This document shows positions 115 through 57,597 of a DNA stretch of 64,000 bases, in pieces (the stretch's first letter is position 1; the number at the start of each line of letters is the position of its first letter). The stretch is from contig JALONQ010000009.1 in the NCBI GenBank assembly GCA_025454835.1, forward strand, positions 1 to 64,000, read 5' to 3'. The position numbers were made by a program, and so were the translations under genes. A model generated the notes under the pieces. It was not told where the DNA came from, ran no database searches, and saw only the letters and a program-made list of their open reading frames with translations. The stretch is from Bacteroidota bacterium. GTDB lineage: Bacteria; Bacteroidota; Ignavibacteria; UBA10030.

Positions 115-163
115 ATCTTACATCTTACATCTTACATCTTACATCTTGTATCTTTCATCTTGC
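115..163. repeat. Heptanucleotide tandem array (7 units, consensus ATCTTAC)
   Basis: Four perfect ATCTTAC units (115-142) are followed by three diverged ones (ATCTTGT, ATCTTTC, ATCTTGC). The array lies in the 188-bp gap between the zinc-ribbon fragment and the cation exchanger. The rest of the gap holds a short perfect hairpin (CCGGGT-GCG-ACCCGG near 228) without a T tail and no other recognisable signal. This is the first of many 7-nt-period arrays in the window. Confidence 0.9.
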
Positions 164-283
164 TTCACACCGATCGTTCCGGGAAGCGCCTGGCGGGTGG
201 GTGGTGATGGGGATGGAGCCGGGTGCGACCCGGATCGCGGTCGTTGAAGAACATACGCCAACATTGAACCTGAAACACACTGC

Positions 284-1372
284 GTGGAACCGTTGACCAT
301 CGTCATGACCCTTGCCGGCTTTGGCCTCCTCGTCATCGGGGCCGAGTGGCTCGTGCGCGGCGCTTCTCGCCTGGCTTCGATGGCCGGCATCTCGTCGCTG
401 GTCATCGGCCTGACGGTGGTGGCGTTCGGCACCAGCGCCCCCGAGGTGGCGGTGACGGTTCAATCGGCGATCGACGGCCAGCCGGACCTAGGCGTCGGCA
501 ACGTGATCGGCAGCAACATCTTTAACGTTCTCTTCATCTTGGGAGTCTCGGCCCTCATCGTTCCGTTGGTCGTCTCGCGTCAGCTGGTTCGGTGGGACGT
601 TCCTGTAATGATCGCGACCTCTGTCGCAGCCCTGGTTCTTTCGCTCGACGGAGCGATCTCGGCGATGGATGGCGCCATATTGGTCGTGGCGCTGGGGGCG
701 TACGTCATATGGTCGATCCGCCTGGGTCGGCGCGAGGTACGTGCCGAAGGCGGAGATGCAACCGTCGTTGACCGGTCCATACGGTCGATCGCCATCAGCG
801 CGGGTCTCATTGGGGTGGGCTTGGCCGTCCTAGTCCTGGGGGCGAATTGGCTGGTGGACGGCGCGACGGCGATCGCACGCACTCTGGGCGTCAGTGAGCT
901 TGTCATCGGCCTGACGATCGTGGCGGCAGGTACGTCGCTCCCGGAGGTGGCCACGTCGATCATCGCCAGCATTCGGGGCCAGCGCGACATTGCCGTCGGC
1001 AATGTCGTCGGCAGCAACATTTTCAACGTGCTGGGGGTGCTGGGGTTCTCGTCGATCCTGGCCCCCACGGGCGGCATTCCGATCGCCTCGTCGGTGCTGA
1101 CGTTCGATTTCCCCGTGATGATCGCCGTCGCGGTCGCATGCCTGCCGGTCTTCTTCCATCAGGGCAAGATCGATCGGTGGGAGGGAGCGGTGTTTGTGGT
1201 CTACTACATTCTCTACACGGTCTACTTGATCCTCGATGCTGCGGGGCATGATGCGTTGCCGATGTACAGCGACATTATGATGGAATTCGTCATTCCGATC
1301 ACGGTCTTAACGCTGGCGGTCGTGGTCCTTCGTTACATCCGTTCGGACAGGACGGCCGTGAAGGCGGCGTGA
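284..1372 (+). CDS. CaCA-family sodium/calcium (cation) exchanger, YrbG-like
   Basis: This is a 362-residue polytopic inner-membrane protein with the two inverted alpha repeats of the CaCA superfamily. The first carries GTSAPEV at residues 49-55 and GNVIGSNIFN from residue 72. The second carries GTSLPEV from residue 216 and GNVVGSNIFN from residue 239. These form the cation-binding site that exchanges Ca2+ against Na+ or H+. The chosen start is GTG at 284; the next in-frame ATG is at 305. The protein is slightly longer than E. coli YrbG because of extra hydrophobic C-terminal sequence. No Shine-Dalgarno is evident. The substrate ion is inferred from the family. Confidence 0.9.
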   Translation: MEPLTIVMTLAGFGLLVIGAEWLVRGASRLASMAGISSLVIGLTVVAFGTSAPEVAVTVQSAIDGQPDLGVGNVIGSNIFNVLFILGVSALIVPLVVSRQLVRWDVPVMIATSVAALVLSLDGAISAMDGAILVVALGAYVIWSIRLGRREVRAEGGDATVVDRSIRSIAISAGLIGVGLAVLVLGANWLVDGATAIARTLGVSELVIGLTIVAAGTSLPEVATSIIASIRGQRDIAVGNVVGSNIFNVLGVLGFSSILAPTGGIPIASSVLTFDFPVMIAVAVACLPVFFHQGKIDRWEGAVFVVYYILYTVYLILDAAGHDALPMYSDIMMEFVIPITVLTLAVVVLRYIRSDRTAVKAA

Positions 1373-1445
1373 GGCTGCGTCCCGAGAGACATTGATGCAT
1401 CGTAACCCCACTGACAAACACATGGAGGCGTGAATCGGAGGCACT

Positions 1446-2309
1446 ATGAACACCCTGAAGACCACCCTGTTGATGACCGTGCTCACGGTCCTGTTCGTGA
1501 TGGTCGGCAATTGGCTAGGCGGACAGAGCGGCATGATGATGGCCTTTGCATTCGCCATTCTCATGAACGTCGGCACCTACTGGTTCAGCGACAAGATGGT
1601 CCTGCGGATGTACGGGGCAGAGGAGCTCGACCGCTCGCAGTACGGCCATATCTATCGCATGACGGAAGAACTGACGCACCGGGCCGGCATTCCGATGCCC
1701 CGACTTTACCTGATCCGCGGCGACCAGCCGAACGCGTTCGCGACCGGCCGGAACCCGCAGAACGCGGCCGTGGCCGTTACGGAGAGCATCGTCCGGCTGC
1801 TGACGAAGGATGAGCTGCGCGGCGTCGTGGCGCACGAGCTGGCGCACATCAAGAACCGGGACATCCTCGTCGCCACCATCGCAGCCACGTTCGCCGGGGC
1901 CATCAGCATGATCGCCAACATGGCGCAGTGGGCCATGATCTTCGGCGGCCGCTCGAACGACGAAGAGGGTGGCGGCAACCCGATCGTCGCCATTGTGATG
2001 ATGATCGTGGCCCCGCTGGCGGCCATGATGATCCAGATGGCCATCTCTCGGCAGCGCGAGTTCCTGGCCGACGCCGGCGGCGCGCAGATGAGCGGCAACC
2101 CGATCTCGCTGGCCAACGCTCTGAAGCGTTTGCACAGCGCTTCGCAACAGGTCCCGATGCAGGCCACGCCCGCCACGGCGCATCTGTTCATCGTCAATCC
2201 GTTCAGCGGCGGCGCCATGATGAAGCTGTTCAGCACCCACCCGCCGATGGAAGAGCGCGTGGCGCGGCTGGAGGAGATGGCGTATGGGAGGTCGATCTCA
2301 GTTCGATGA
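1446..2309 (+). CDS. htpX: HtpX membrane zinc metalloprotease
   Basis: A 287-residue M48B peptidase that degrades misfolded inner-membrane proteins together with FtsH. Two N-terminal membrane segments (about residues 5-22 and 27-45) precede the zinc site HELAH at residues 130-134; the third ligand is probably E205 in REFLAD. Two more hydrophobic segments (about 145-195) flank the site, as usual in HtpX. The length is standard. The start ATG is preceded by CGGAGGC, a good ribosome-binding site. The gene follows the exchanger by 73 bp in the same direction and may be co-transcribed with it. Confidence 0.95.
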
Positions 2310-2317
2310 AGAGCTGA

Positions 2318-2448
2318 GGAAGGTGGAAGGTTGTAGGAGATAGGTGTGAGGAAGGGGTCAGGGGGCGCGCGCGGCGACGCCTCTGGCCCCCCCGAGCCCG
2401 TTTTGCGATTCACTGTTTTCTATTTTCTATTCTCTATTATCTCCCCTC
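2318..2448. repeat. Two heptamer arrays flanking a GC-rich hairpin
   Basis: Directly after the htpX stop, five 7-nt units based on GGAAGGT run from 2318 to 2352. A second array based on TATTTTC (TGTTTTC, TATTTTC, TATTCTC, TATTATC) runs from 2414 to 2448. A GC-rich hairpin lies between them. The right array overlaps the 3' end of the converging S9 peptidase gene and contains its TAA stop (2437-2439). Confidence 0.8.
2354..2404. terminator. Probable bidirectional terminator between htpX and the S9 peptidase
   Basis: An imperfect GC-rich stem (left arm from 2354, right arm ending about 2390) is followed on the plus strand by TTTT at 2401-2404. It sits between two convergent genes, where a shared terminator is expected. 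Confidence 0.45.
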
Positions 2449-4800
2449 AGACCTTCCAAGGTGTTCGTCGAACAACCTAAGAATTCTCCGATATTCATCC
2501 ATCCAACTAGTGGGCTCCGCGAACCCGTGATCTTCGACGGGGTACGACGCCAGCTCCCAGTTATCCTTCCGTAATTCGATCAGCCGCTGCGCGAGGCGCA
2601 CCGCGTCCTGATAGTGCACATTCACGTCGAGCATGCCGTGACAGATGAGCAACGCCCCTTGCAGTCCTTCCGCGTGATAGATGGGGGATGAACGGCGGTA
2701 CGCTGCCGAATCCTCCTGCGGGATATTGAGGATGTCCGACGTGTATCCGTGGTTGTAATGGGCCCAGTCGGTGACCGGTCGCAGCGCCGCCCCCGCCGCA
2801 AAGATCCCCGGCGTGGTGAACATCCCCATCAGCGTGATGAACCCGCCGTACGACCCCCCGTAAATGCCGATCCGCTTCGCGTCGATGCCGTGCTGTTCAA
2901 CGAGCCATCGCGCGCCGTCCACGTTGTCCTCCAGGTCCTTCCCCCCCATGTGCCGGTAGATGGCCGTCCGCCAATCCCGCCCCAGGCCGGCACTGGCACG
3001 ATAGTCCATATCGATGACGGTGTAGCCCTTGTCGGCCAACAGGTTGTGGAACATGTACTCGCGGAAGTAACTGCTCCATCCCTTGTGAGCGTTCTGCAGA
3101 TAGCCGGCGCCATGAACGAAGATCACGGCGGCGCCGTTCGGTCTCTCGGGCTCGTAGAGCCGCACCGGAACGTGCGCGCCGTCGCGAGCTTTGAAGGTCG
3201 TCACCATGGGCGAGCGCCAGTCATACGCCCGGAACTCCGCTGACGGCGAATCAGTGATGCGCGTCGCTTTCGCTCCTGGAGCGTTATCCATCACATACAG
3301 GTCCGGCGGACGATTGCTGAACTCGTGGAGGAACGCGATCCGCTTCTCGTCGGGAGAGAGAACGGCCTCGTTCTGGCCCTCCATGAACGTGATCTTCGTC
3401 CTCGTCCCGCCGCCAAGCGGCATCGTGTAGAAATGCCGTTCCCCGAAATGTTCCTCGTTCGAGGTGAAGTACCATCGTTTCCTGTCTCGCGACAGCCGCA
3501 GATCATACACCTCAAACCTCCCACCGGTCACCTGAACCTTGTTCCTCCCGTCGAGTCCCACCGTATACAGGTGGCTCCATCCGTCCGCTTCCGACTGAAA
3601 CCACACTCCTTTGCGGTCCGGCAGAAATCCCACCGTCTCTCCGAAAGCTCCTATCCCAGGCCCACCGATCCATGCCGTATCGCGCTGATGGTCGAGTACC
3701 GTCGAAATAGTCGCTCGCTCGATATCGAGAAGGACGATCCACCGGTCCTTGTTGTCCTGCGAGAAGACCTGGGTCAGCGCCTGACGCCCGTCGTCGGACC
3801 AGACGACGCCGGAGTAGAAGGCGGAACGCGCCACGGCCTTCTTTCCCTTCGACGTGTCGGCGGGCGGCTTCAGGATGCCGGGCAGCGAGTCGGGCCGCAC
3901 GGCGATGAGCGTGTCGCGGGCGAGGTCGAGCACGAAGAGTTCGAACGTCGATGGTGCATCTCCCACCTTCGTGCGCGTCGGGATCTCTTCGGTGTAGCCT
4001 GATTCGGTGACGTAGTTCGGGATGTTGGCCGTCTTCGTGCCTGAGGGGCGTTCCGTAACGAGGAACGTGACGTAGCGACCGTCTGGAGACAGCCCGAGCT
4101 GCGAGGCGGTCCGCTGGCCGAGGTAGTGTGGCTTCGGATTATTCTCGGCCAACGCATCGCGCAATGCCTTGGCGGACTCCCGATCGTTGCGGCGCTTCTG
4201 CAGAACGGCCGAGAGCCGCAGAGCCTCGCGTTCGAGCATCGCTTGTTGTACGCTCTTTGGCGTTTCCTTCGGGGCCACGCCCGTTCGCAGATCGGTCAGC
4301 TGGGTCTCGAGTCCGGATGTGAGTTTCCGGTGAAACAGGTTCCCGTTGCGGACGAACGTGATAGCGTCGCCTTCGGGCGCGAATCGGGGATCGGATTCGA
4401 TGTCAACAGTCCGGGTCAACGGTTGCGACGAACTTGTGCGAATGTCGTAGAGAAAGATGTCGCCGTTCTTCTGGTAGACCTTGCGCTGACGGTCGATCGT
4501 CCAATGCCCGCCGTGCGACGGCATGGAACGGCATTCGTCCAGTGAGACACGAACGGGAGTGCCGCCGCCCGTTGGAACCTTGTAGAGTGAATCGCCCTTG
4601 TCCTCTCCGCGGCGCCAAGTGAAGTAGATCCAGCGGCTGTCCTCTGACCAGAGGATCTGCTTCGGCGACGTGCCCATCCACACTGGGTCGCGCATGACAG
4701 TGTCGACCGTCAGCCAGCCGCGGGAGGGCTGGGCTCCCAGAAGGACGGGACACAGAAGGCACAGCAGGAGATCAAGACAGGAGAAAGCATTTGTGCGCAT
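2437..4800 (-). CDS. Secreted S9 family peptidase (prolyl oligopeptidase/DPP-like)
   Basis: A 787-residue serine peptidase with an N-terminal signal peptide ending near LLGAQP, a long beta-propeller (WD40-like/PD40) domain, and a C-terminal alpha/beta-hydrolase. The catalytic triad is readable: Ser650 in GGSYGG, Asp725 in GMLDVN and His758 in EDHGF. Family members cleave peptides or acyl-peptides in the periplasm or outside the cell. It stands alone, convergent with htpX and divergent from the GNAT gene. No strong Shine-Dalgarno is present, which is common in Bacteroidota. The exact peptide specificity cannot be told from sequence. Confidence 0.93.
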   Translation of the reverse strand: MRTNAFSCLDLLLCLLCPVLLGAQPSRGWLTVDTVMRDPVWMGTSPKQILWSEDSRWIYFTWRRGEDKGDSLYKVPTGGGTPVRVSLDECRSMPSHGGHWTIDRQRKVYQKNGDIFLYDIRTSSSQPLTRTVDIESDPRFAPEGDAITFVRNGNLFHRKLTSGLETQLTDLRTGVAPKETPKSVQQAMLEREALRLSAVLQKRRNDRESAKALRDALAENNPKPHYLGQRTASQLGLSPDGRYVTFLVTERPSGTKTANIPNYVTESGYTEEIPTRTKVGDAPSTFELFVLDLARDTLIAVRPDSLPGILKPPADTSKGKKAVARSAFYSGVVWSDDGRQALTQVFSQDNKDRWIVLLDIERATISTVLDHQRDTAWIGGPGIGAFGETVGFLPDRKGVWFQSEADGWSHLYTVGLDGRNKVQVTGGRFEVYDLRLSRDRKRWYFTSNEEHFGERHFYTMPLGGGTRTKITFMEGQNEAVLSPDEKRIAFLHEFSNRPPDLYVMDNAPGAKATRITDSPSAEFRAYDWRSPMVTTFKARDGAHVPVRLYEPERPNGAAVIFVHGAGYLQNAHKGWSSYFREYMFHNLLADKGYTVIDMDYRASAGLGRDWRTAIYRHMGGKDLEDNVDGARWLVEQHGIDAKRIGIYGGSYGGFITLMGMFTTPGIFAAGAALRPVTDWAHYNHGYTSDILNIPQEDSAAYRRSSPIYHAEGLQGALLICHGMLDVNVHYQDAVRLAQRLIELRKDNWELASYPVEDHGFAEPTSWMDEYRRILRLFDEHLGRSEGR

Positions 4801-4924
4801 GGAGGTTCCGAATGAAAAACTTTCAATGAAGGTACGCCCAGGTAATTCAAGAATCTAAAGAGAATCATCAATATCTTATTTATGAGAATCACCCAACCTG
4901 CCAAAAGATGCGAAGGATTTCTGA

Positions 4925-5752: not shown

Positions 5753-5808
5753 AGGCCGTCAAGAACGGCATCTCCACGATCCCCTTGCTTCACTGAAGAG
5801 AGGGCCCA

Positions 5809-6456
5809 ATGTTCCTCGGCCACTACGCCACCGGTTTTGCCGCCAAGAAGATCTCGCCCCGTACGCCGCTGCCGCTGCTTCTGCTCGCATCGCAATTCAT
5901 CGACCACCTCTGGCCCATCTTCATCCTGTTCGGAATCGAACGGGTGGCGATCGTTCCCGGCATCACCGTGTTCACTCCGCTCGATTTCATCTACTACCCA
6001 TGGACGCACAGTCTCCTGATGTCCGTCGCATGGGGCGTGGGGCTTGGCGCGTTGGTGTATGCGTTCCGCAAAGAGATCCGCGAAGCGGTTGTGATCGCGG
6101 CTTTGGTCCCGGGGCACTGGTTGCTCGATCTCCTCGCGCATCGTCCCGATCTGCCGCTGGCTCCGGGGACGACAACGATGTTCGGGTTGGGCCTCTGGAA
6201 CTCTGTTCCCGCGACGATCGCGGTTGAGTTGACCCTCTTTGCGGGCGGCATCGTCCTCTATTGGCGCGCCACCCCTGGGGCTTCCCGCCGTTCCCGGGTT
6301 GTTTTCGGTTCGCTCGTGACATTCCTCCTGCTGATCTACGCCAGCAACACGTTCGGTCCTCCTCCGCCAAGCGTGGAGATGATCGGCGTCGCGGGCAACG
6401 CTCTGTGGATCGTGATCCTCTGGGCGTGGTGGGTGGAGAAAAGAAGCAGGCAGTAA
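5809..6456 (+). CDS. Polytopic membrane protein, predicted membrane-bound metal-dependent hydrolase-like
   Basis: A 215-residue hydrophobic protein with about five to six membrane segments. Conserved-looking His/Asp residues sit at membrane borders: H5 near the N-terminus, FIDHLWP near residue 30 and PWTHSLL near residue 65. This pattern recalls the YdjM/DUF457 group of predicted membrane hydrolases, but the match is only by eye. It follows the GNAT gene by 56 bp, and GAGAGGG precedes the ATG. Its last codons and TAA stop lie inside a dispersed repeat that begins near 6446. Confidence 0.6.
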   Translation: MFLGHYATGFAAKKISPRTPLPLLLLASQFIDHLWPIFILFGIERVAIVPGITVFTPLDFIYYPWTHSLLMSVAWGVGLGALVYAFRKEIREAVVIAALVPGHWLLDLLAHRPDLPLAPGTTTMFGLGLWNSVPATIAVELTLFAGGIVLYWRATPGASRRSRVVFGSLVTFLLLIYASNTFGPPPPSVEMIGVAGNALWIVILWAWWVEKRSRQ

Positions 6457-6592
6457 GCACGACTCCGTCAGGTCCAGTCAGTCGGAGGTCGATGAGCAAG
6501 ATCATTGATTCTTGTCCCATGTTTTCCGCCTGCAATGAACCTGAACGGTCCTGCCTACTGCCTACTGCTCTACGCCTTCCTCTGGCTTCCTC
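6446..6592 (+). repeat. Dispersed ~140-bp element, copy 1 (arms with CTGCCTA heptamers)
   Basis: The left arm (GCAGGCAGTAAGCA, then TCAGGTCC) and the right arm (ACCTGAACGGTCCTG, then CTGCCTA units) are inverted repeats around a centre containing CAAGATC and TTGTCCC...CGCCTGC. The same arms and centre recur, in inverted orientation, at 36450-36592. The left arm overlaps the end of the upstream CDS and supplies its stop codon. The element fills the gap before the Lon-like gene. Confidence 0.8.
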
Positions 6593-10173: not shown

Positions 10174-10210
10174 AACCCCGGATGAACTCTCCGGGGTTTC
10201 TCTTTTTCTG
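10174..10210 (+). terminator. Rho-independent terminator of the Lon/K+ channel operon
   Basis: A perfect 9-bp stem AACCCCGGA/TCCGGGGTT (10174-10182 and 10190-10198) with a 7-nt loop is followed by TCTCTTTTTCTG on the plus strand. Confidence 0.85.
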
Positions 10211-10260
10211 TCTTCTGCTCTCCGACCCCTGACCTCTGATTTCTGCCCTCTCCATCTCAC
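10206..10260. repeat. Heptamer array (consensus CTCTGAC), overlapping the kefB-like stop
   Basis: About eight 7-nt units (TTCTGTC, TTCTGCT, CTCCGAC, CCCTGAC, CTCTGAT, TTCTGCC and so on) begin in the T tail of the terminator and run into the TGA stop of the convergent antiporter gene (10257-10259). The same consensus recurs at 16249-16281. Confidence 0.7.
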
Positions 10261-11939
10261 TTCAGCACCTCGTCCCTTCTCCGCAATTCCTCCATTTCGA
10301 CCTGTCGCCGTTGTTCACGGATCGATTCGCCGCACCCAAGCCACGTCGTCACATCGAGCGCCTCGGCCGAAGAAGGCAAAATCACGTGGTCAGCCCCTTC
10401 TTCATACAGGTCCAGCGCGTGCTCGGCGGAGTCGGCGATCACTACCACAGCCGCTGAAACGTTCCGTGCCTTCAGATATCGCAGCAAGGCCATATTGGAA
10501 GTGCCGCGCAACATATCGTCTGGTACGGAGCTGATGATGACCGCGGCCTCTTCCAGACCGGCAGCCTCGATCGCGTCGAGATTGCTGATGTCGACATAGA
10601 CCGCCGAGATGTCCCGCACTCGGAGACGGTCCAACACCACCGGATTGAAGTCGAACACACGGAGCGGCCGGGCCGTCTTCGAGAGCTCGTGCACCAAGGC
10701 GCTTCCCAGTCGGTGACACCCGAGGAGAATGATCTCACCCCGCTGACCAGGGCCAGACGGAGGCTCGACCTCGGCAGCGACGCCGGTCCTGCCCATCCAC
10801 CGGGTCAGGCCCGATGCGATCTGGTGCGCGATGCGCGCGGCATAGGTCGTCAGCGTCGACGTTACCACAAGCGTAATGGCGATGAGCGACACGACGTCCG
10901 GTGCGATGTGTCCCAGACCCACACCGATCGTGGCGATGACAAGAGAGAACTCGCTCGACTGCGACAGGTACAGGGACGACAGGACCCCCACCCGGCCTCC
11001 CAATCGAAGCGACGCTGCCGCCGGCAGAATGGTCGCGACGCGGGTCACGATGATCACCGCCGAGAGAACGAGTCCGACGACAATGGTATCGATCGACGTC
11101 ACGATGATCTGCATCCCCAACGCGACGAAGAAGAGCGTCACGAAGAAGTCCCGCAACGACCGGATCTTGACGATGACCTCGTGGCTGTACGGATAGGTGG
11201 AGATGCTCACGCCGGCGATGAGGGCTCCCATGGCCAGGGAGAATCCGGCCTCCATCGCAAGCCAGCACAGGAAGAAGCACCACGCGATCGACAGGACGAG
11301 CATGAGTTCCGCGTCCTGTGCCACGAGTCGGAAAAGGCGCGGAAGCAGGAACTTCGCGGCCCCGAAGGCGACCGCGACCAGCCCGACGCCGTAGAGGAGC
11401 GACATCACTATCGGCAGAAAGGAGGGGTCGTCGATATTTCCCTGCATGGCAAGGACGACGATCGCGAGCACATCCTGGACCAAGAGGATGCCGAGGGTGA
11501 TGCGCCCCGGCAGCGTGTCGAGCTCGTTCCGGTCCGACAGCAGTTTGACGACCACCATGGTACTGCTGAAGGCCAGCGTGATGCCGAGGTAGGTCGCCGT
11601 GAGGCCTTCGAAGCCGAGCGCTCGGGCCGCGGCCCACAGGAGCACCGCGCTTACGACCACCTGTACCGTTCCGATGATGGCGGAGGAGCGTCCGGAGCGG
11701 GCGAACTTCTTGAGGTCGATCTCGAGGCCGACGATGAAAAGAAGGAACGCGAGGCCGAGTTCTGAGAGGAGGGCGATCTCTTCCTGGTTCGTGATCAGCC
11801 CGAAGCCGGTGGGACCGAGGAGGATACCGGCGCCGATGTAGCCGAGGATCAGCGGCTGGCGAACGATGCGCGCCACCACGGCGAGGGCCGATGCGGCGAC
11901 GATCGAAATGCCGATGGCGAAGAGCAGTTCAGAGTGCAT
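10257..11939 (-). CDS. CPA2 cation:proton antiporter with TrkA-N domain (KefB-like)
   Basis: A 560-residue protein. About residues 1-380 form 12-13 membrane segments of the Na+/H+ exchanger (CPA2) type, including GYIGAGILLGPTGFG near residue 35 and SSTMVVVKLL near 136. The C-terminal part from about residue 405 is a RCK/TrkA-N domain beginning IILLGCHRLG, the regulatory module of KefB/KefC K+ efflux systems. It is a lone minus-strand gene downstream of typA. Whether it moves K+ or Na+ is not decided by the sequence. The start ATG at 11939 keeps the full first membrane helix. Confidence 0.9.
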   Translation of the reverse strand: MHSELLFAIGISIVAASALAVVARIVRQPLILGYIGAGILLGPTGFGLITNQEEIALLSELGLAFLLFIVGLEIDLKKFARSGRSSAIIGTVQVVVSAVLLWAAARALGFEGLTATYLGITLAFSSTMVVVKLLSDRNELDTLPGRITLGILLVQDVLAIVVLAMQGNIDDPSFLPIVMSLLYGVGLVAVAFGAAKFLLPRLFRLVAQDAELMLVLSIAWCFFLCWLAMEAGFSLAMGALIAGVSISTYPYSHEVIVKIRSLRDFFVTLFFVALGMQIIVTSIDTIVVGLVLSAVIIVTRVATILPAAASLRLGGRVGVLSSLYLSQSSEFSLVIATIGVGLGHIAPDVVSLIAITLVVTSTLTTYAARIAHQIASGLTRWMGRTGVAAEVEPPSGPGQRGEIILLGCHRLGSALVHELSKTARPLRVFDFNPVVLDRLRVRDISAVYVDISNLDAIEAAGLEEAAVIISSVPDDMLRGTSNMALLRYLKARNVSAAVVVIADSAEHALDLYEEGADHVILPSSAEALDVTTWLGCGESIREQRRQVEMEELRRRDEVLK

Positions 11940-11973
11940 GAAGGGCCAGGCAGGGCTCGATCACGACAGAAGA

Positions 11974-12056
11974 GAATGAGTCACAAAAGTACACGAAATG
12001 ACACGAATCGGAAATGGGTAACACGTTCCACCTCATTCGTGTCCCTTCGTGGATTG
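11974..12056. repeat. Inverted repeat with ~9-nt arm periodicity (element A)
   Basis: The left arm contains TACACGAAA and GACACGAAT; the right arm is the inverse of CCACGAAGG and GACACGAATG. The element fills most of the 154-bp gap between typA and the antiporter gene, both on the minus strand. It belongs to a set of similar elements at 13985, 26464, 53260, 59636 and 63810. Confidence 0.7.
11984..12014 (-). promoter_or_regulatory. Possible promoter of the KefB-like gene
   Basis: On the minus strand TACTTTTG (11984-11991) matches the Bacteroidota -7 box TAnnTTTG exactly. TTT, one base off TTG, lies 20 nt upstream. The 5' leader would be about 40 nt. The -7 box is part of a repeat arm, so a chance match is possible. 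Confidence 0.35.
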
Positions 12057-12093
12057 ATTCCTTTGCTGTGGCAAGCGCGGTTGTGAGCCTACC

Positions 12094-13944: not shown

Positions 13945-13984
13945 GTGGTACTCTCTTCGTAATCTCTTGATGTTGCGCTAAGCA

Positions 13985-14095
13985 AAGAGGTATCACGCAG
14001 AGGCGCAGAGGTCGCTGAGGCCGCAGGGGGAGGGATACATACCCTTCCTTCCTCTGCGCTCTCCGCGTTCTCTGCGACTCTGCGCGCACATCTTC
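13985..14095. repeat. Inverted repeat with 9-nt arm periodicity (element B), typA leader
   Basis: The left arm is a run of near-9-mers (ACGCAGAGG, CGCAGAGG, TCGCTGAGG, CCGCAGGGG). The right arm is the inverse of the same theme (CCTCTGCG, CTCTCCGCG, TTCTCTGCG, ACTCTGCGC). The element starts about 40 nt upstream of the typA ATG. Confidence 0.75.
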
Positions 14096-14105
14096 TCTTC
14101 TTAAC

Positions 14106-14140
14106 AAAAAATGCCTCAGCGGGAGCAGAACGCTGAGGCA
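14106..14140 (-). terminator. Terminator-like hairpin upstream of typA
   Basis: A perfect 10-bp stem TGCCTCAGCG/CGCTGAGGCA (14112-14121 and 14131-14140) is followed on the minus strand by six T residues. It could be a second terminator for the DUF6588 gene or an attenuator in a long typA leader. The interval 14141-14270 holds a GC-rich imperfect inverted repeat (GCCTGCCG ... CCGGCAGGC, about 14207-14245) and no gene. Confidence 0.75.
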
Positions 14141-14270
14141 CTCATAAGATACGCAAATTCGAGACGGTTTCAAAGGCGATCTGACCTGTCTGCCTGGCGT
14201 CTCCCCGTCCCCGCCTGCCGCTGACAGCACTTTGAACCGGCAGGCAGGTCTGCGGTTCATTCTTCAAAGA

Positions 14271-14302
14271 AAACACAAAGGGCCGGCATGTTCTGCCGGC
14301 CC
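14271..14302 (-). terminator. Rho-independent terminator of the DUF6588 gene
   Basis: A perfect 9-bp stem GGGCCGGCA/TGCCGGCCC (14280-14288 and 14294-14302) with a 5-nt loop is followed on the minus strand by TTTGTGTTT, about 30 nt after the stop codon. Confidence 0.85.
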
Positions 14303-14331
14303 CTGTGTGAACCTGAGTGGTTCGAACGGGC

Positions 14332-16248: not shown

Positions 16249-16281
16249 TTCCTGACCTCTGACCTCTTCGCTTCTCTACCG
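16249..16281. repeat. Short heptamer array (CCTCTGA-type)
   Basis: Units TTCCTGA, CCTCTGA, CCTCTTC, GCTTCTC and TACCGCC span the gap between the nitrilase gene and the downstream hypothetical gene and include the nitrilase stop codon. The theme matches the array at 10206-10260. Confidence 0.55.
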
Positions 16282-23555: not shown

Positions 23556-23560
23556 ACGAC

Positions 23561-24107: not shown

Positions 24108-24167
24108 TCTTTCGGCCGCACTCGTGTTCACACAGAGCCAGATCGCATTTAGTGGTTCACTCGGCTC

Positions 24168-24216
24168 CGACACCCGACACCCGACACCCGACACCCGACA
24201 CCTGATACCCAATACC
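24168..24216. repeat. Heptamer array (CGACACC x5, plus two diverged units)
   Basis: Five perfect CGACACC units are followed by TGATACC and CAATACC. The array ends 13 nt before the ATG of the FMN reductase gene, occupying the place of a ribosome-binding site. Confidence 0.9.
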
Positions 24217-24229
24217 CCGGCTCCCCCAC

Positions 24230-25384: not shown

Positions 25385-25424
25385 GAGTGGCTACATTCGC
25401 CGATGACGTTACTCGAGCTTCCGA

Positions 25425-25494
25425 AATCGTCAATCGTCAATCGTCAATCGTCAATCGACAATCGACAATCGTCAATCGTCAATCGTCAATCCTC
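25425..25494. repeat. Heptamer array (AATCGTC, 10 units)
   Basis: Ten consecutive 7-nt units: seven AATCGTC, two AATCGAC and one AATCCTC. It is the longest clean array in the window. It ends 7 nt before the ATG of the VOC dioxygenase gene and replaces a ribosome-binding site. A related theme (CGTCAAT, CGACAAT) forms the array at 29882-29916. Confidence 0.95.
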
Positions 25495-25501
25495 TATCCC
25501 C

Positions 25502-26431: not shown

Positions 26432-26463
26432 ACGCATGGAGCGGACGAAACTGGGGGAAATTG

Positions 26464-26553
26464 TTGCCACAAAGATCACAGAGAGCTCAAAGGCAGCCTT
26501 AGGTGCTGCACCTGCATCTTCTTCTCTGAGGTCTTTGTGTTCTTTGTGGTCAT
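26464..26553. repeat. Inverted repeat (element C), CACAAAG theme
   Basis: The left arm CCACAAAGATCACAGAG and the right arm, the inverse of CCACAAAGAACACAAAG, enclose a small hairpin-rich centre. It fills the gap between the dioxygenase and the esterase genes, which run in the same direction. Confidence 0.65.
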
Positions 26554-26574
26554 GCTTCTGATCCGATAACGACC

Positions 26575-28067: not shown

Positions 28068-28077
28068 TAGCGCAACG

Positions 28078-28185
28078 TGAAACCTGAAACCTGAAACCTG
28101 AAACCTGAAACCTGACACCTGAAACTCGGAACGCGCAACCCGCAACTCACATTCATTCATCCTCATCATTCACTCATTCATCCCC
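28078..28185. repeat. Heptamer array (TGAAACC x5 and diverged units) upstream of yceI
   Basis: Five perfect TGAAACC units, TGACACC and TGAAACT (28078-28126) grade into diverged 7-nt units (CGCAACC, CGCAACT, CACATTC, ATTCATC, TTCACTC, ATTCATC) that keep the phase until about 9 nt before the yceI ATG. Confidence 0.85.
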
Positions 28186-29881: not shown

Positions 29882-29923
29882 AGAGAATCGTCAATGGTCA
29901 CTCGAAAATCGACAATACCCGCC
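29882..29923. repeat. Heptamer array filling the whole gap between two minus-strand genes
   Basis: Units AGAGAAT, CGTCAAT, GGTCACT, CGAAAAT, CGACAAT and ACCCGCC occupy the 43-bp space between the stop of the acyltransferase gene (29925) and the start of the CDF gene (29881). The array touches the start codon directly. Confidence 0.6.
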
Positions 29924-35146: not shown

Positions 35147-35182
35147 ACCTTCCCCATCCTTCCACCTCCCACCTTCAACCTT
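35147..35182. repeat. Heptamer array (ACCTTCC-type) next to the anion transporter stop
   Basis: Units ACCTTCC, CCATCCT, TCCACCT, CCCACCT and TCAACCT keep a 7-nt phase and end 10 nt from the transporter stop codon (35192). In the other direction they read GGAAGGT-like, as in the array after htpX. Confidence 0.6.
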
Positions 35183-35191: not shown

Positions 35192-36433
35192 CTACCAGAG
35201 ACCCATCCACCCCCAATACACCGCCGTCTGCGCGATCGTCAGCGGCACGCCGATCTTTGCGAATTCCCAAAATGTTACCGTCGCATGCGAGCGTCGTTCG
35301 GCATTCTGAATGACGATGATATTGCTCGCCGCGCCGAGGATGAACACGTTGCCGGCAATGGTGCTTCCGGCCGCGAGCGCCATGAGTTCACGCTCGCCTC
35401 CTCCGGCGCTCAACAACAGCGGCTGCACCAGCGCGACCAGCGGAACATTCGAGATCGCCTGGCTCAGCAACACGCTCACGCTCAGCACGCTCTCAACAGC
35501 AACCAGCCGTACATCCCACCGCCGCATCAGATCCTGGAAGAACCCGGTCTCCCACACGCTTTCCATCAACATGAACATCGCGGCGAAGAACGCCAGCGTC
35601 GGCCAATCGATGCGCCGCAGGATCTGCCAGCGTTGACGCGTACCGAGCAGAACGGGAAGAGCCGAAGCCAGCGCGATCACCGTCAACGGCAACTCGAACG
35701 ACCATCCGAATGCCACGCCCAGCACTTTAATGGCCACGAGGGCCACGATCATCTGCAGCGAAAGCCGGGAGAGCAACGCCAGGTGGTGGTCGTGGATCGG
35801 CTCCTGAGAGTGCTTCAACTCGGCCGCATGGAAATCGTCAGGGTAGTAGCGTCGCAACATCCAGAAGGCGAGCAGGAGGTTGAGTACCGTCGGAACGAAC
35901 AGCCACTGAAAGAACGTCACGAACGGATCGACGATGCCGCCATGGAGGGCGATGAGGAGGTTCTGTGGATTGCCGATCGGGCTGAGGACGCTTCCGGTGG
36001 TCACGGCGATGCACAACGCGAGCAGGAGCATCGTGGGCCGCATCTCGTGCTTTTTCGCAAGCAGCAGCACGACGGGCGTTCCGATGATCGCCAGTGTGTC
36101 GTTCATCAGGAACGCCGAAGCAAACCCTGCGCCGAACAGAATGAGGAGAAGAAGTCCGTTCCGGGTCGTGGAGCGGCGGAAGTAGTGGTAGGAAAGATGG
36201 GAAAGATAGCCGCTGGCCTCGAGCGCGCGTCCGACGACGAACATCCCGAACAAAAAGAACATCACGTCGGCGTCGATCGACGCGAGGGCGTCTCCCGGGG
36301 AGATCGAACCAGCCGCCAGCACAGCCACGGCACCGCCGGTCATGATCTGCCAGATCTCCAGCCGCACGCTTCCCACCTGCCGGATGGCGATGAGGGCGAA
36401 GACAGAGGCGAGGATGAGGACGGGGAAAGGCAT
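35192..36433 (-). CDS. SLC13/ArsB-type (ion transporter superfamily) anion or cation permease
   Basis: A 413-residue protein with about eleven membrane helices. The motifs FLFGMFVVGRALEASG (residue about 62), ASAFLMNDTLAIIGTPVV (about 112) and TGSVLSPIGNPQNLLIA (about 150) are the duplicated helical-hairpin signatures of the ArsB/CitMHS/NhaD/SLC13 transporters; SPIGNPQN and AASNIIVI are the substrate-binding tips. The substrate could be dicarboxylate, sulfate, arsenite or Na+/H+; no neighbour decides it. It lies downstream of the VanX-like gene on the minus strand, separated by the second copy of the 140-bp repeat. Confidence 0.85.
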   Translation of the reverse strand: MPFPVLILASVFALIAIRQVGSVRLEIWQIMTGGAVAVLAAGSISPGDALASIDADVMFFLFGMFVVGRALEASGYLSHLSYHYFRRSTTRNGLLLLILFGAGFASAFLMNDTLAIIGTPVVLLLAKKHEMRPTMLLLALCIAVTTGSVLSPIGNPQNLLIALHGGIVDPFVTFFQWLFVPTVLNLLLAFWMLRRYYPDDFHAAELKHSQEPIHDHHLALLSRLSLQMIVALVAIKVLGVAFGWSFELPLTVIALASALPVLLGTRQRWQILRRIDWPTLAFFAAMFMLMESVWETGFFQDLMRRWDVRLVAVESVLSVSVLLSQAISNVPLVALVQPLLLSAGGGERELMALAAGSTIAGNVFILGAASNIIVIQNAERRSHATVTFWEFAKIGVPLTIAQTAVYWGWMGLW

Positions 36434-36449: not shown

Positions 36450-36592
36450 ATGGAAGTAAGCAGTAGGCAGGTACAATCAGGTCCGGGGCAGGCGAAAGAC
36501 CCGGGACAAAGATCTCGGGATCTTGATCAGGGCTTTCCACCTGACACGACCTGAACGAATCCTGCTTACTGCCTACTCGTTCTCAAGTTCCT
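36450..36592 (-). repeat. Dispersed ~140-bp element, copy 2
   Basis: Read on the minus strand it begins GAGTAGGCAGTAAGCAGGA, continues with TTCAGGTC, GATCAAGATC and TTGTCCC...CGCCTGC, and ends CCTGCCTACTGC. It matches copy 1 at 6446-6592 throughout. As in copy 1, the first arm overlaps the end of the upstream gene and contains its stop (TAG of the VanX-like gene, 36573-36575). Confidence 0.8.
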
Positions 36593-37631
36593 CAAAGGAC
36601 ACCACTCCGATCATCCACCGATCCCATCCCGCAAAGTCAAAATGCCACCATTCCCACTCGTATTGCGTGAATCCTTCCCGCTCAAGGGCGGCCTTCAGCA
36701 GCTCGCGATGCCAGCGCTGGAGAGACGTCCCGCCGGGGTAGTGGGGAAACGCGCGTTCGGAGAATTCATCATACCCGCCGACCATGTCGGCCGGAACGCC
36801 GGTGCCCAAATGGTAGAGCGTGGCATCGATGGCGCATCCGCGATTGTGACGCGAACCCTTCGACGGGTTGGCCACGAACACTTCCTTCATGGCATCCGGC
36901 GTGGCGTCCCAGAACATCTTCGTCACCGACCAGGGACGGTAGGCGTCATGCACGAGCAGTCCGTAACCATATGCGCGGAGCCATGCGTGCGCCCTCACTG
37001 CCGCCTCGGCCGCGGGGCGCTGCAGGTATGCGCGGGACAGCGAATAGAACTGTTGTCCCATGAAGTTGTTCGTCGAGGCGTATCGGATATCGTAGCGGAT
37101 GGTCGAGTCGAGGGAATGCAGCTCGACGAGATCGGTGGGCCTGAAGGTGCCCTGTTCCACGGGTGGTTTGGCCGCCTTCGCGCGATGGATCAACTCCTCT
37201 CCGGAAAAGAGCGGATCGATGCGGAATGTCACGCCGTCCTCCTCTGCAAGCGGCCGGCGACGAAAGGCCTGTCCATCGATAAGGATCGAATCCGGGCGAC
37301 CGACGGAGGACCCGTGGACCGTCACTCTGCGGGCACCGGAAAACGATGTCGAGGTCCACTCCCATTCGCGGTCCTGAGCTTTGTGAAGTGCACCCATCGT
37401 GCCGGAGAGAGGACCCAGTTGAAGCGTTCCATTCTTCTCACCGAGCACCAGCGTGTCCGACGCAACGTACTGTCCCAGCCAGAGCTTCTGGGCTGGTGTG
37501 GCATCCGAGGGTCTGGAAGGAATCTTCTGCGCTAGGATCACCACCGGCAACATCATCGACAGAATCATGATTCCGAATGTCCAGGATGGCCCTGTCCACC
37601 ATCGCTGCGTTCGCCCAACCATGTCTGCCAT
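36573..37631 (-). CDS. Secreted D-alanyl-D-alanine dipeptidase (VanX/DdpX family)
   Basis: A 352-residue protein with a signal anchor or signal peptide (FGIMILSMMLPVVILAQ). Residues about 30-165 form an extra N-terminal beta-rich domain, and the C-terminal 190 residues are the M15D peptidase. Zinc-site motifs: SRHNRGCAIDATL (about residue 258-270, the SxHxxGxAxD signature) and EWEWWHFDF near the end (catalytic Glu and last His). The catalytic Arg region is HDAYRPWSV. It should cleave D-Ala-D-Ala from peptidoglycan turnover in the periplasm. No van resistance genes are nearby, so it is a recycling enzyme rather than a resistance determinant. Confidence 0.92.
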   Translation of the reverse strand: MADMVGRTQRWWTGPSWTFGIMILSMMLPVVILAQKIPSRPSDATPAQKLWLGQYVASDTLVLGEKNGTLQLGPLSGTMGALHKAQDREWEWTSTSFSGARRVTVHGSSVGRPDSILIDGQAFRRRPLAEEDGVTFRIDPLFSGEELIHRAKAAKPPVEQGTFRPTDLVELHSLDSTIRYDIRYASTNNFMGQQFYSLSRAYLQRPAAEAAVRAHAWLRAYGYGLLVHDAYRPWSVTKMFWDATPDAMKEVFVANPSKGSRHNRGCAIDATLYHLGTGVPADMVGGYDEFSERAFPHYPGGTSLQRWHRELLKAALEREGFTQYEWEWWHFDFAGWDRWMIGVVSFEELENE

Positions 37632-37653: not shown

Positions 37654-37695
37654 ACCACCCAAGACCCACTACCCGATACCCATGACTTGCCACCC
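37654..37695. repeat. Heptamer array (GGGTxxx on the minus strand) in the VanX-like gene leader
   Basis: Plus-strand units ACCACCC, AAGACCC, ACTACCC, GATACCC, ATGACTT and GCCACCC keep exact 7-nt spacing. The phase continues with weaker units to the start codon at 37631. Confidence 0.7.
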
Positions 37696-52240: not shown

Positions 52241-52313
52241 AAGTGGTTGTAATGATTGAGGTTACTAAGAGGCCGGACGATCTTCAGGGAGTCCGTACCT
52301 TTCAGAATAGCTG

Positions 52314-52867: not shown

Positions 52868-52977
52868 CGATCGTTCGATCGTAGCCGCCCTGGCGGTGTT
52901 GTCCGCTGGGGCGATCCTATTGTTGGCGGCCGTGACCCTTGCGTCCGCCCGTTCCTCCCACCGTAGAAAGGCTGAGC

Positions 52978-53181
52978 ATGGAACGAGGAACCGTCAAGTT
53001 CTTCAATTCGACCAAGGGATTCGGCTTCATCACGATGGACAACAACGAAGAGGTCTTCTTCCACGAGTCCAACGTCAAGAACACCGGATTCCGGTCCACA
53101 CTAGGTCAGGGTGACCTGGTGGAGTTCGAGATCAAGAATGAACAGAAAGGAAAGCGCGCGTATAACATCTCGCGCGTCTGA
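52978..53181 (+). CDS. Cold-shock protein (CspA family), second of two
   Basis: A 67-residue CspA-fold protein: MERGTVKFFNS, RNP1 KGFGFITMDN, and EVFFHE in place of the more usual VFVHY at RNP2. It is about half identical to its neighbour and shows clear divergence, so the pair is an old duplication. AGAAAGG lies upstream of the ATG. The 110-bp gap after the first gene shows no terminator, so both may share a transcript. Confidence 0.94.
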   Translation: MERGTVKFFNSTKGFGFITMDNNEEVFFHESNVKNTGFRSTLGQGDLVEFEIKNEQKGKRAYNISRV

Positions 53182-53193
53182 CCCCGAAACGAG

Positions 53194-53228
53194 CAACGGG
53201 AGCCGAGAGGCTCCCGTTGTGCTTTCTG
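53194..53228 (+). terminator. Terminator after the cold-shock pair
   Basis: A perfect 11-bp stem CAACGGGAGCC/GGCTCCCGTTG (53194-53204, 53209-53219) is capped by a GAGA (GNRA) tetraloop and followed by TGCTTTC. The T tail is poor, so it may also stabilise the 3' end. Confidence 0.75.
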
Positions 53229-53259
53229 ACATCGCCGATGTTCCTCTGAAGATCTCAAA

Positions 53260-53350
53260 GCGAACACAGATCAACACTGAAAAATCGGATGACCATAACA
53301 CACTTTCGATCTGTGCAGATCCCTCTCTCCCGTGTCGATCAGTGTTCCCG
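53260..53350. repeat. Inverted repeat (element D)
   Basis: The left arm GCGAACACAGATCAACACTGA and the inverse of the right arm, which reads GCGGGAACACTGATCGACACG, are near copies. The arms match those of elements E and F (59636, 63810) with A/G changes. It lies between the convergent cold-shock and DUF4175 genes. Confidence 0.7.
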
Positions 53351-53356
53351 CCGTTC

Positions 53357-56300: not shown

Positions 56301-56758
56301 TCGATCGCCTCGACTTCGGCATACAATAGGCGTATCGCCTCGGTGGCAAGGTCGGATGATACCCACCCGGCGTCCACGCGCGTTGGGCCAAGCTGCAGGG
56401 CGTTCACCAGCCGGTCGCGGATCGTCGGAAAAGAAGCTCCGACCCGGTCCGCGACAGCAAGTAAAGTATCGCCTCTGAGGATGCCGGCGGAACGAAGCCA
56501 TGGAACAAGAGCGTATACGCCGGCGCACAACAGGGAGCCGAGGAACACGACGGCGATGAATGTGCGCAGGCCGACCTCGCCGTGGAGCCCCCATTCGGTC
56601 AGCACGGCCACGCCGGCGAAGGCCGAGGCGCCGGCAAGTGCTTGCCAACCGCGCCGCGCGGCTTCGCTGCGCAGTTCGAGCCGATGGACCGCTTCGACCC
56701 GATCGTGCAACTGCGCGATCAATTCCTGGTATGAAGGAAGGGAGGATATCACGGTCAC
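53357..56758 (-). CDS. DUF4175 family membrane protein with very long Gln/Met-rich coiled coil
   Basis: An 1133-residue protein. Three membrane helices lie in the first 190 residues (about 38-58, 66-86, 172-190); a beta-sandwich region (about 200-530) resembles the periplasmic part of DUF4175 proteins. From about 545 to 1100 it is a continuous coiled coil, first charged (KKLRDELQKLSRDL), then rich in Q and M (MQQSMQNIDREQLRQALEQA; QQNAQRSLEQFAQQMNALQ). The GTG start at 56758 overlaps the DUF4159 stop (GTGA). DUF4159, DUF4175, MoxR and vWA genes usually cluster, and here the other half is 10-15 kb away. The long helix could span or organise the periplasm. Function unknown. Confidence 0.85.
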   Translation of the reverse strand: MTVISSLPSYQELIAQLHDRVEAVHRLELRSEAARRGWQALAGASAFAGVAVLTEWGLHGEVGLRTFIAVVFLGSLLCAGVYALVPWLRSAGILRGDTLLAVADRVGASFPTIRDRLVNALQLGPTRVDAGWVSSDLATEAIRLLYAEVEAIDLTTAVDRQPSRRWRLRGLVAAASIAFLTLLFPGSIGSAWYRLALFATPFTPPPMYVFEVEPGNTEVVKGGTVGVRVIVRNAAGELLHRSLPVTLGRRIGGQTTYDRAGMVRDSSGTYRASLTDLRFSSEYVAMVGEHSSVVYRVEVVDRPVITAFGVRLDPPAYSRLSRRQQPDFTGDIRVLPGTVATITGAASKDLIQGRLVFGDSTVVPLTIRGASFTGSFTVRSEGHYRVEVFDEASLANASPVRYPITLLPDAPPTVRVVDPGRNLDIAGDLPIGLLIEAGDDYGISSMRLAYRLSHSKFEEVRETFTYRPLTLPPGDRTRLQTIDQWDVSALHLVPEDVVEYCVEVFDNDNINGPTSARSPLFTLRLPSLEEVFTDLDRGQETAIEEMKEALEDSKKLRDELQKLSRDLKQNKETDWAKEQQTKEMAKRLDDLQKKVDETAKKMDEMTAQMEQQQVLSPETMEKYMELQSLFQEMDTKALQDALRQMQQSMQNIDREQLRQALEQAQFSEERFRQNLERTINLLKRIQVEQKMDEVVKRADDLAKQQAEEGRKADSLGRSTEELAKRQEEFAEAQREMEAAAQDLQRRMEEFFTEMPAEQMMKLNESLEAQQLGEMMRQAAQDMRQGNMNAARQKQQNAQRSLEQFAQQMNALQRQMLQKQAAQTMNALRRATADLLQVSEDQEALRNQARSAPSNSPQLRQNAQGQQRAMQDLGNVISSLGEEAQRSFAVTPGVAKALGQAMTQMQSAMRDLEGRNGTMASQDQTSAMSSLNSAAQQVQDALQQMMQGSDGSPGGMGLMQQLQMMAGQQQSINLQTQQMGNMEMMQRAAEAARLAREQDAVRKSLEQLEREARASTTGERALGDLQQVAEEMREVIRQLERNNASPETIRRQERILSRLLDASRSMQERDFERRRRATTGRTIVRPGPTAVEPQGRSRLREELDRALEQGFARDYQELIRRYFEALEREQTERP

Positions 56759-57423
56759 CGGGTCAGAGCCCAGACGATGAGGTTAGTGCCGAATCGGAGC
56801 GCTTCCAGCCGCACCGCTTCGGGGTCGCCGTGGATCTCGGCATCCACCCAGCCGTCGCTCGGGTTCGATTCCACGGAATAGAAGAGCGACAAACGACCGT
56901 CGACGAACAGCCCGTAGCCGCGCGAGGGCTTGTTGTCATGTTCATGCGTCTTCGGGACGCCGTTGGGGAAACTGAATGGAATACGGTAGATCGGATGGTC
57001 GAACGGGATCTCGACCAGCGGGGCTCCGGGCATCACCTTCGCCAACTCACGCCGAAAGGCCTTGTCTAATCCATAGTCATCATCGACGTACAGAAATCCG
57101 CCCCGCTCCAAGTAGAGCCTCAGTCGGTCGGCTTCGGCCTGACTGAAGACCACATTTCCGTGACCGGTCATGAACAGGAAGGAGTAGGTGAACAGCCGGT
57201 CGCTGGAGAGCTCAACGAACTCGTAGCGCGGGTCGGAGTCCACGCCGGCCTGCTGCTTCGCGAACCGCAGGAGGTTCACTTCGGCCGACGGGTCGTTATA
57301 CCAATCCCCGCCGCCGGAATACTTCAGCCGGCCAATGCGGAACTGCGACTCCATGCGGGCCTGCGCATCGACGGAACCGACCAACCACACCAGCAAAAGG
57401 GGCAAGAGCGACAGTCGCTTCAT
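56755..57423 (-). CDS. DUF4159 domain periplasmic protein
   Basis: A 222-residue exported protein (signal MKRLSLLPLLLVWLVGSVDA; the ATG at 57429, two codons earlier, is equally possible). The core FVELSSDRLFTYSFLFMTGHGN and the hinge EADRLRLYLERGGFLYVDDDYG are diagnostic of DUF4159, a glutamine-amidotransferase-like fold of unknown activity. The C-terminus contains a buried Trp strand. It overlaps the DUF4175 gene and is transcribed first. Confidence 0.9.
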   Translation of the reverse strand: MKRLSLLPLLLVWLVGSVDAQARMESQFRIGRLKYSGGGDWYNDPSAEVNLLRFAKQQAGVDSDPRYEFVELSSDRLFTYSFLFMTGHGNVVFSQAEADRLRLYLERGGFLYVDDDYGLDKAFRRELAKVMPGAPLVEIPFDHPIYRIPFSFPNGVPKTHEHDNKPSRGYGLFVDGRLSLFYSVESNPSDGWVDAEIHGDPEAVRLEALRFGTNLIVWALTR

Positions 57424-57548
57424 GAACATAAGGTAGCCACAAGAGCCTGGAACTACAATACAGCCGTTTGCTTCTTGGATGGAGATGGATGTATCATGTA
57501 GACACCTGTCGGACCCTTCGGTATCCCATCGTCCAAAGCCATCTCCAC

Positions 57549-57597
57549 ACTTCCCACTTCCTCCTTCCAACTTCCAACTTCTAACTTCTTACTTGCC
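57549..57597. repeat. Heptamer array (ACTTCCA-type) abutting the SRAP start codon
   Basis: Seven units (ACTTCCC, ACTTCCT, CCTTCCA, ACTTCCA, ACTTCTA, ACTTCTT, ACTTGCC) end at 57597, and the ATG of the SRAP gene is 57598. The 168-bp gap between the divergent DUF4159 and SRAP genes is otherwise featureless. Confidence 0.9.

Follow-up and report, generated by a model that had tools for sequence, protein, structure and literature searches.

Heptanucleotide arrays between the genes of an Ignavibacteria genome share one period and one strand polarity, not one word

The DNA studied here is a 64-kb stretch (contig JALONQ010000009.1, positions 1 to 64,000; hereafter the window) of the genome of an Ignavibacteria bacterium (Bacteroidota), in which short tandem arrays of seven-nucleotide units lie between the genes. 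These heptanucleotide arrays are real, and they share a polarity at both ends of genes: in nearly all of them the strand leaving the nearer gene is richer in G than in C. The polarity is independent of quadruplexes and of any single word. The sample comprised the window and 40 further stretches, together 847 kb of the 3.23-Mb, 47-contig genome. Relatives of its Mfd protein were found at 27 public loci, 25 of which carry the label Ignavibacteria, Bacteroidetes or Bacteroidota and two Clostridia, in keeping with a host from the Ignavibacteria.

Period 7 and confinement to spacers

In the 847 kb, 29 spacer runs with a score of at least 12 had period 7, against none with periods 4, 5, 11 or 13, one each with periods 6, 8 and 10, two with period 12 and six with period 9; the 22 runs of period 14 are a harmonic of 7, and period 21 is likewise harmonic. 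The first 464 kb held 22 period-7 runs, where five spacer simulations averaged 0.0, and 390 kb of coding DNA yielded no period-7 run at this score. A first gene caller had returned 400 spacers for the 847 kb. It overlooked genes (in G001, the congener genome used for comparison of orthologous borders, it called 74% as coding) and the polarity results were recounted with a refined caller, which gave 668 genes, 87% coding sequence and 545 spacers. At a score of at least 11, the cut-off for the polarity set, the refined caller placed 37 of 42 arrays in spacers with two called neighbours, four in end spacers and a single one in a called gene. A sequence-only reading of the window, which had named twelve arrays, would have been refuted had period 7 been no commoner between genes than periods 5, 6, 8 or 9, or had the arrays been equally frequent inside genes; neither is the case.

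That reading also ascribed a strict 7-nt phase to its twelve arrays. When lags 4 to 11 were compared, lag 7 was indeed the best in all twelve, and ten exceeded dinucleotide shuffles of the respective stretch at p<0.05, the exceptions being 16249-16281 (p=0.09) and 37654-37695 (p=0.06); the test is lenient here, since the stretches were picked by the reading itself. Tandem Repeats Finder (TRF), at a score of at least 40, called period 7 at six of them (115, 2416, 24167, 25425, 28074 and 57544). A strict phase is thus not confirmed for all twelve: six arrays are strong, four are decayed and two not significant.

Polarity of the G-rich strand

Side and polarity were assigned relative to the nearer gene, polarity being scored as G versus C on the strand leaving that gene. 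Among the 37 arrays this strand had more G than C in 33, more C than G in three and a tie in one. The rule applies at starts (20:2, the tie left out) as well as at stops (13:1). Non-array windows equal in length, distance and border type showed the same orientation in a fraction of 0.626 at starts (p=0.003) and 0.493 at stops (p=0.0008), which excludes spacer composition as the sole cause, clearly at stops and less so at starts; non-array spacer DNA leans weakly in the same direction as the arrays. The first caller gave 41:4 for the genome itself and the refined caller, at the higher cut-off, 33:3. Divergent arrays kept the polarity in five of five cases, or three of three with refined genes and the higher cut-off. 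The mean outward composition was A 0.305, C 0.113, G 0.342 and T 0.241. Outward strands had a mean folding energy of -0.138 kcal/mol per nt (shuffled -0.092), and inward strands folded weakly (mean -0.059, shuffled -0.046). The sequence-only reading had not mentioned any polarity. The provision of stop codons in all frames was considered as a purpose of the arrays and rejected on a mixed result, such stops being found in 19 of the 37 outward consensus units.

A polarity of this kind, together with proximity to genes, matches the heptamers described by Rehm et al. (2015, PMC4692102, in the parts of the paper drawn on here), and a G-rich strand forming G-quadruplexes, or i-motifs, near genes might be thought to underlie it. 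However, four GGG runs are present in one of the 37 arrays and four GG runs in ten. The lack of four GGG runs in 36 of 37 arrays largely excludes the G-quadruplex as a general cause, and we regard DNA secondary structure as a very improbable explanation.

Since the polarity rule had been spotted on part of the data from the genome itself, relatives serve as the replication. They show the polarity more weakly: pooled, they gave 68:24 and, within 40 nt of a gene, 39:8 (refined caller, ties left out). G001 contributed 12:7 (10:2 near genes), three genomes of another family 32:10 (19:2), nine other stretches 17:3 (5:2), 25 public loci 5:3 (3:1) and 17 family stretches 2:1 (2:1). Some of the relatives' stretches had been selected for arrays of the pattern CTGAYNN, irrespective of orientation, and the public locus L051 overlaps G001:C92, so that up to two arrays are possibly counted twice in the pooled figures.

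Position relative to genes

With a cut-off of at least 10, used for border distance and word pairing, 20 of 47 arrays lay no more than 15 nt from the border of a gene, compared with 10.7 expected upon random placement in the same spacers. The enrichment at gene ends postulated by the sequence-only reading is hereby borne out; its emphasis on start codons is not, given that the nearer gene end is a start for 23 and a stop for 14 of the 37 arrays. Tandem spacers held 39 arrays (0.54 per kb), divergent spacers five (0.33) and convergent spacers three (0.39). The presence of arrays in divergent spacers rules out a role purely as terminators, although the divergent and convergent numbers are too small to be compared with each other.

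Rho loads on C-rich, G-poor RNA. If RNA entering genes, whether sense or antisense, had to cross such a loading sequence, read-through would be halted. Insulation of this type fits the polarity at starts and stops, the occurrence of arrays in every type of spacer and the composition of the inward strand (about 34% C and 11% G). On the other hand, many arrays are shorter than 30 nt, they are little conserved, and the loading sequence would also stand in the path of those sense transcripts that the cell needs. We therefore consider Rho-dependent insulation quite unlikely.

A second possibility is that the arrays act before starts only, where their G-poor, C-rich strand could replace the Shine-Dalgarno sequence by serving as a binding site for ribosomal protein S1 or for proteins of the cold-shock or a similar type. 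Several arrays do end 2-13 nt before an ATG, and a role of this sort has been proposed for TAACTGA arrays (MacGregor, 2015, PMC4679880). A four-base Shine-Dalgarno match was found at 31% of 591 called starts (10% in shuffled leaders), that is, 69% lack one; the share was 27% for the 404 starts with a spacer of at least 40 nt and 41% for the 187 with shorter spacers. Among starts with a spacer of at least 40 nt, 108 of 393 array-free ones had a match, as opposed to none of eleven abutted by an array (p=0.04). This last result is near automatic, because the array occupies the very stretch concerned. The correlation with absent Shine-Dalgarno sequences that the sequence-only reading proposed for testing does appear in these counts, but most starts lack the site anyway. 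The further proposal of that reading, that the arrays serve as leaders instead of a ribosome-binding site, is not supported, in view of the 14 of 37 arrays at stops, of the predominance of starts without Shine-Dalgarno sequence, of unit changes from gene to gene, and of the absence of arrays before two of the genes concerned (starts 28194 and 57598) in nearly all relatives examined. We consider leader function rather unlikely as a general explanation. Nor was such use undescribed, as had been supposed: MacGregor (2015, PMC4679880) places TAACTGA arrays immediately upstream of starts and suggests translational regulation.

Conservation and turnover among relatives

At two borders the genome and its congener G001 carry different arrays. 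Before gene 25502 an AATCGTC array of 10.7 copies faces a 104-base CTTTACC array of about 15 copies in G001, and GTAGGCA words at the end of gene 5809-6456 face GGAATGC words. Overall, of the 14-17 array-bearing borders for which G001 has an orthologue (range over three score cut-offs), two carry arrays there as well, in each case of a different unit. Among non-array borders three of 132-135 bear one, the difference being p=0.07-0.10. Renewal of arrays at the same borders in G001 is accordingly suggestive, not significant. In twelve other family genomes 25 array borders were compared, most of them from one and the same pair of genes, and none carried an array; the orthologue loci of genes 28194 and 57598 in eleven relatives each (out of 26 and 17 matching, respectively) contained none except one 16-base run with a score of 9. 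The arrays are little conserved between species. The favoured repeat step may drift as well. G001 also carries octamer arrays of GATGGAAT, for example at L065 1243-1290.

Repeat words and inverted pairing

The 37 arrays comprise 27 words when rotation is allowed for and 26 when strand is allowed for as well; among these 26, 19 were seen once and two four times. The claim of the sequence-only reading that the period is shared and the unit is not holds insofar as many words share period 7, yet the words are fewer than it implied. Among the 18 arrays of at least 35 nt there were 15 in which between one and three of the seven positions varied, a pattern that copying with occasional mutation could leave; this is a descriptive count made without a null model. 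The CTGAYNN pattern over 26 bases, nearly four units, was present in 35 of the 149 class genomes and its backwards form in 16, partly as the same arrays on the opposite strand.

Inverted copies of array words were found at the far end of the same spacer 80 times (23.0 expected), with at least two hits for nine of 44 arrays, and direct copies 36 times (16.3 expected; five of 44 arrays). When the continuation of the array itself was left within the tested region, inverted and direct copies came out alike (14 versus 13 of 46 arrays). Clear inverted pairs are 36456/36561 in the window and others in L018, L021 and L027. One might accordingly take the arrays for periodic ends of small spacer-filling repeat elements with inverted arms, similar to repetitive extragenic palindromic (REP) sequences or to miniature inverted-repeat transposable elements (MITEs); the recurrence of related words between spacers would agree with this. 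But 35 of 44 arrays have fewer than two inverted hits, direct sharing is raised as well, and two genes for Y1-transposases (PF01797, RAYT-type) are devoid of heptamer runs with a score of at least 9 in their 2.1- and 3.2-kb loci, one of these genes lying 275 bases from a contig end, so that its flank is partly unseen. An origin from a RAYT/REP system is rejected on the latter ground. Inverted pairing of words is a minority feature, and repeat elements of this kind appear unlikely as the source of the arrays.

Further repeats were noted in the spacers. One Y1-transposase gene (L105; G000:C33, first 2 kb) adjoins short palindromes that resemble REP hairpins, not heptamers; the second gene is in L106 (G000:C30). 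Another class of spacer words with a step of 9-10 nt (CACAGAG, CGCAGAG, CACGAAT) occupies 11940-12093, 13945-14331 and 26432-26574 of the window, and by eye words of the CACAGAG class are inverted at opposite ends of the same spacer. The 6-mers CACAGA and ACAGAG rank second and third among enriched spacer words and also lean outward; the enrichment of 6-mer words is suggestive at most. By eye, too, a dispersed repeat, GGCTTGCCC and the bases following it, stands between CAGTG-type heptamers in L013 (12755-13071), L018 (5806-5962) and L098 (19342-19460).

Origin of the arrays and of their polarity

We tentatively favour, with a confidence just short of even, an explanation in which slippage makes the repeats, frameshifting excludes them from genes and selection at the transcript level filters their polarity. 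A short tandem duplication would appear in a spacer, and replication slippage would then lengthen, shorten and homogenise the array in 7-base steps. Because slippage would act on many different units, the words would differ from spacer to spacer. Within a gene every 7-base step would shift the frame, and arrays would therefore survive almost solely between genes. The survivors would pass a filter that requires the strand reading inward at each end of a gene to be G-poor. At starts, leaders would thereby be kept from folding and from offering false ribosome sites. At stops the filter would act on antisense RNA entering the gene or, equivalently, favour G-rich RNA leaving it. Slippage as the source is suggested by the shared period in the absence of a common word, by the near-absence of arrays from genes, by their homogeneity and by their turnover. 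Transcript-level selection, whether for lack of structure, against false ribosome sites or through Rho, would fit the polarity at both gene ends.

Several points weigh against this slippage-and-filter explanation. Polarity does not follow from slippage alone, and the reason put forward for the filter at stop codons is weak. What has been seen is replacement of units between species, not a change in array length. Related words recur, forming 12 clusters at one mismatch among the 37 arrays (again a descriptive count without a null model), which is not obviously expected if units are chosen freely; the choice of 7 is likewise unaccounted for. In G001, period 8 reaches 11 spacer runs compared with 22 for period 7 (score of at least 12), and the step is therefore not strictly 7 in the genus. 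The polarity in G001 is merely 12:7 overall, even though it is 10:2 within 40 nt of a gene; under the first, poorer gene calls G001 had given 7:8 and the class relatives 34:14. Stretches of two cyanobacterial plasmids gave 4:4, and 3:1 within 40 nt, too few to judge; this count derives from ten runs, of which two were set aside, the first for lying in an end spacer and the second for lying largely within a gene, and it uses incomplete annotation tables. Finally, TAACTGA sets of Microcystis lie six forward and eight reverse to starts in the excerpted data of MacGregor (2015, PMC4679880), which counts against a universal polarity rule.

A dedicated enzyme extending 7-base repeats outward from borders, with the G-rich strand growing at its 3' end as in telomere addition at healed breaks, would match the strand geometry (read 5' to 3', the G-rich strand leads outward from the nearer gene) and the fact that the arrays have the step in common and not the word. 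No such enzyme was identified in a search that covered PF01797 alone, the units are not copies of one template, and the polarity is incomplete in relatives. This makes an enzyme highly improbable. On a broader view, distant bacteria could share a word-tolerant, polar 7-base code at gene borders, its G-poor strand being read inward from both sides; the arrays, renewing themselves and now and then taking new words at an unchanged border, would then be filters for transcript entry, based on Rho or on RNA-protein contacts, or the product of a polar 7-base extension machine. This wider proposal is speculative and in our estimation improbable.

Arrays of the window

The arrays and related words of the window are listed by position, with the evidence for each.

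115..161: ATCTTAC array, 6.7 copies, upstream of the plus-strand gene 284/305-1372 (Na/Ca exchanger); TRF, lag-7 match 0.88, Pfam.
2318..2352: GGAAGGT words, two exact copies followed by decay; the G-rich strand leaves the plus-strand gene ending at 2309; lag-7 match 0.68, p=0.004, no TRF call.
2416..2442: TTTTCTA array, 3.9 copies, entering the stop codon (2437) of the minus-strand gene 2437-4800; TRF, lag test, open reading frame.
6551..6568: CTGCCTA, 2.6 copies; GCAGGCAGTAAGCA is inverted at the opposite end of the spacer, at the stop of gene 5809-6456; sequence.
10206..10260: CTCTGAC-like array, decayed, ending in the stop of the minus-strand gene 10257-11939; lag-7 match 0.56, p=0.0045.
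16249..16281: CTGACCT, 2.3 copies, adjoining the stop of the minus-strand gene 16276-17190/17214; lag-7 match 0.50, p=0.09, not significant alone.
24167..24217: 7.3 copies of CCGACAC, the array ending 12 nt short of ATG 24230 (FMN reductase); TRF, lag test, Pfam.
25425..25499: AATCGTC/AATCGAC array, 10.7 copies, 2 nt before ATG 25502 (glyoxalase family); TRF, lag test, Pfam.
28074..28146: AACCTGA array, 7.4 regular copies (TRF) followed by decay, before ATG 28194 (YceI family); TRF, lag test, Pfam.
29882..29923: AATCGTC/AATCGAC-like words, decayed, filling the spacer of two minus-strand genes (start 29881, stop 29925); lag-7 match 0.54, p=0.002.
35147..35182: CCTTCCA-like words adjoining the stop of the minus-strand gene 35192-36433; lag-7 match 0.66, p=0.02, TRF with period 14 only (2.0 copies).
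36456..36471: GTAAGCAGTAGGCAGG, left member of an inverted pair, upstream of the minus-strand gene 35192-36433; sequence.
36561..36576: CCTGCTTACTGCCTAC, right member of the inverted pair, containing the stop codon of the minus-strand gene 36573-37631; sequence.
37654..37695: ACCC-containing heptamers, decayed; lag-7 match 0.54, p=0.06, not significant alone.
57548..57594: 6.7 copies of AACTTCC, the array ending 3 nt short of ATG 57598 (SRAP protein); TRF, lag test, sequence.

The words at 6551-6568 and the pair 36456-36471/36561-36576 were absent from the list of the sequence-only reading. The gene borders on which that list relied are sound for the starts 24230, 57598, 28194 and 29881 (minus strand) and for the stops 2437, 10257 and 16276. 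The ATG at 57598 is a secure start, since its protein opens with MCGRYA and Cys2 is the catalytic residue of the SRAP family. For 25502 the case is divided: matches to orthologues begin at residue 3 of the form starting there, yet the open reading frame itself opens at ATG 25403 and reads through the AATCGTC array, and the repeat within 25403-25501 may be translated. Decayed CATTCAT-like heptamers continue from the AACCTGA array up to ATG 28194. The region 2352-2400 between convergent genes is G+C-rich with apparent hairpin potential (judged without folding), and heptamers of different units lie on either side of it. Those neighbouring genes that were scanned fall into Pfam families unrelated to each other, and a search of the window for known RNA families gave none at gathering scores.

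Comparison with known systems

Repeats of period 7 are on record from unrelated bacteria. Two earlier papers on such repeats each centre on one favoured word and one idea, the translational leader in one case and the G-quadruplex in the other. MacGregor (2015, PMC4679880) describes TAACTGA direct repeats in Candidatus Maribeggiatoa, Cyanobacteria and Bacteroidetes, with few Shine-Dalgarno sites. Like the arrays of the present study, they are intergenic 7-nt units often located just before starts, and words with the CTGA core of this class recur among our arrays. In Flexibacter, 12 of 14 TAACTGA sets are forward before starts and one is reversed after a stop, which is the polarity seen here. 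In Microcystis, said to carry a range of repeating heptamers, the TAACTGA sets are of mixed orientation to starts, unlike our arrays. Maribeggiatoa, furthermore, has one favoured word, with related heptamers seldom repeated according to the same excerpts, whereas the 26 words in 12 clusters found here do not amount to a single favoured heptamer of the TAACTGA kind.

Rehm et al. (2015, PMC4692102) deal with GGGAATC of Xanthomonas and GGGGA(C/T)T of Nostoc. Their polarity is shared by the arrays studied here, the G-rich strand being antisense at starts and sense at stops, and convergent repeat pairs are reported for Xanthomonas. Oligonucleotides of the two repeats form G-quadruplexes in vitro, in contrast to the missing four GGG runs in nearly all of our arrays. 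Most of the repeats in that study keep their intergenic place from one species to another of the two compared, though their length and sequence differ; the places of our arrays are little conserved. The short tandemly repeated repetitive (STRR) heptamers of cyanobacteria, three of them in Calothrix (cited in PMC4692102), resemble our arrays in that several different tandem heptamers occur in one genome. A 2007 study, as cited in PMC4692102, found heptamers over-represented among the simple sequence repeats of many bacteria and offered the contact size of the polymerase as the cause. On the other hand, longer-unit tandem repeats are generally normally represented and sometimes weakly over-represented according to an excerpt of PMC4060949, and to that extent the period-7 excess reported here is not the bacterial norm; the excerpt makes no mention of a polarity. 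Our search of the open-licence PubMed Central literature yielded no paper on intergenic tandem repeats of Ignavibacteria.

The polarity described here can be separated from any one word and from G-quadruplexes, so that the question why the step is 7 and why the arrays lie beside genes becomes testable; at the same time, the results caution against taking such arrays for substitutes of ribosome-binding sites. The arrays are mostly of a known kind, namely intergenic heptanucleotide simple sequence repeats. They combine many words, nearly all without quadruplex potential, with one period and one polarity at both ends of genes.

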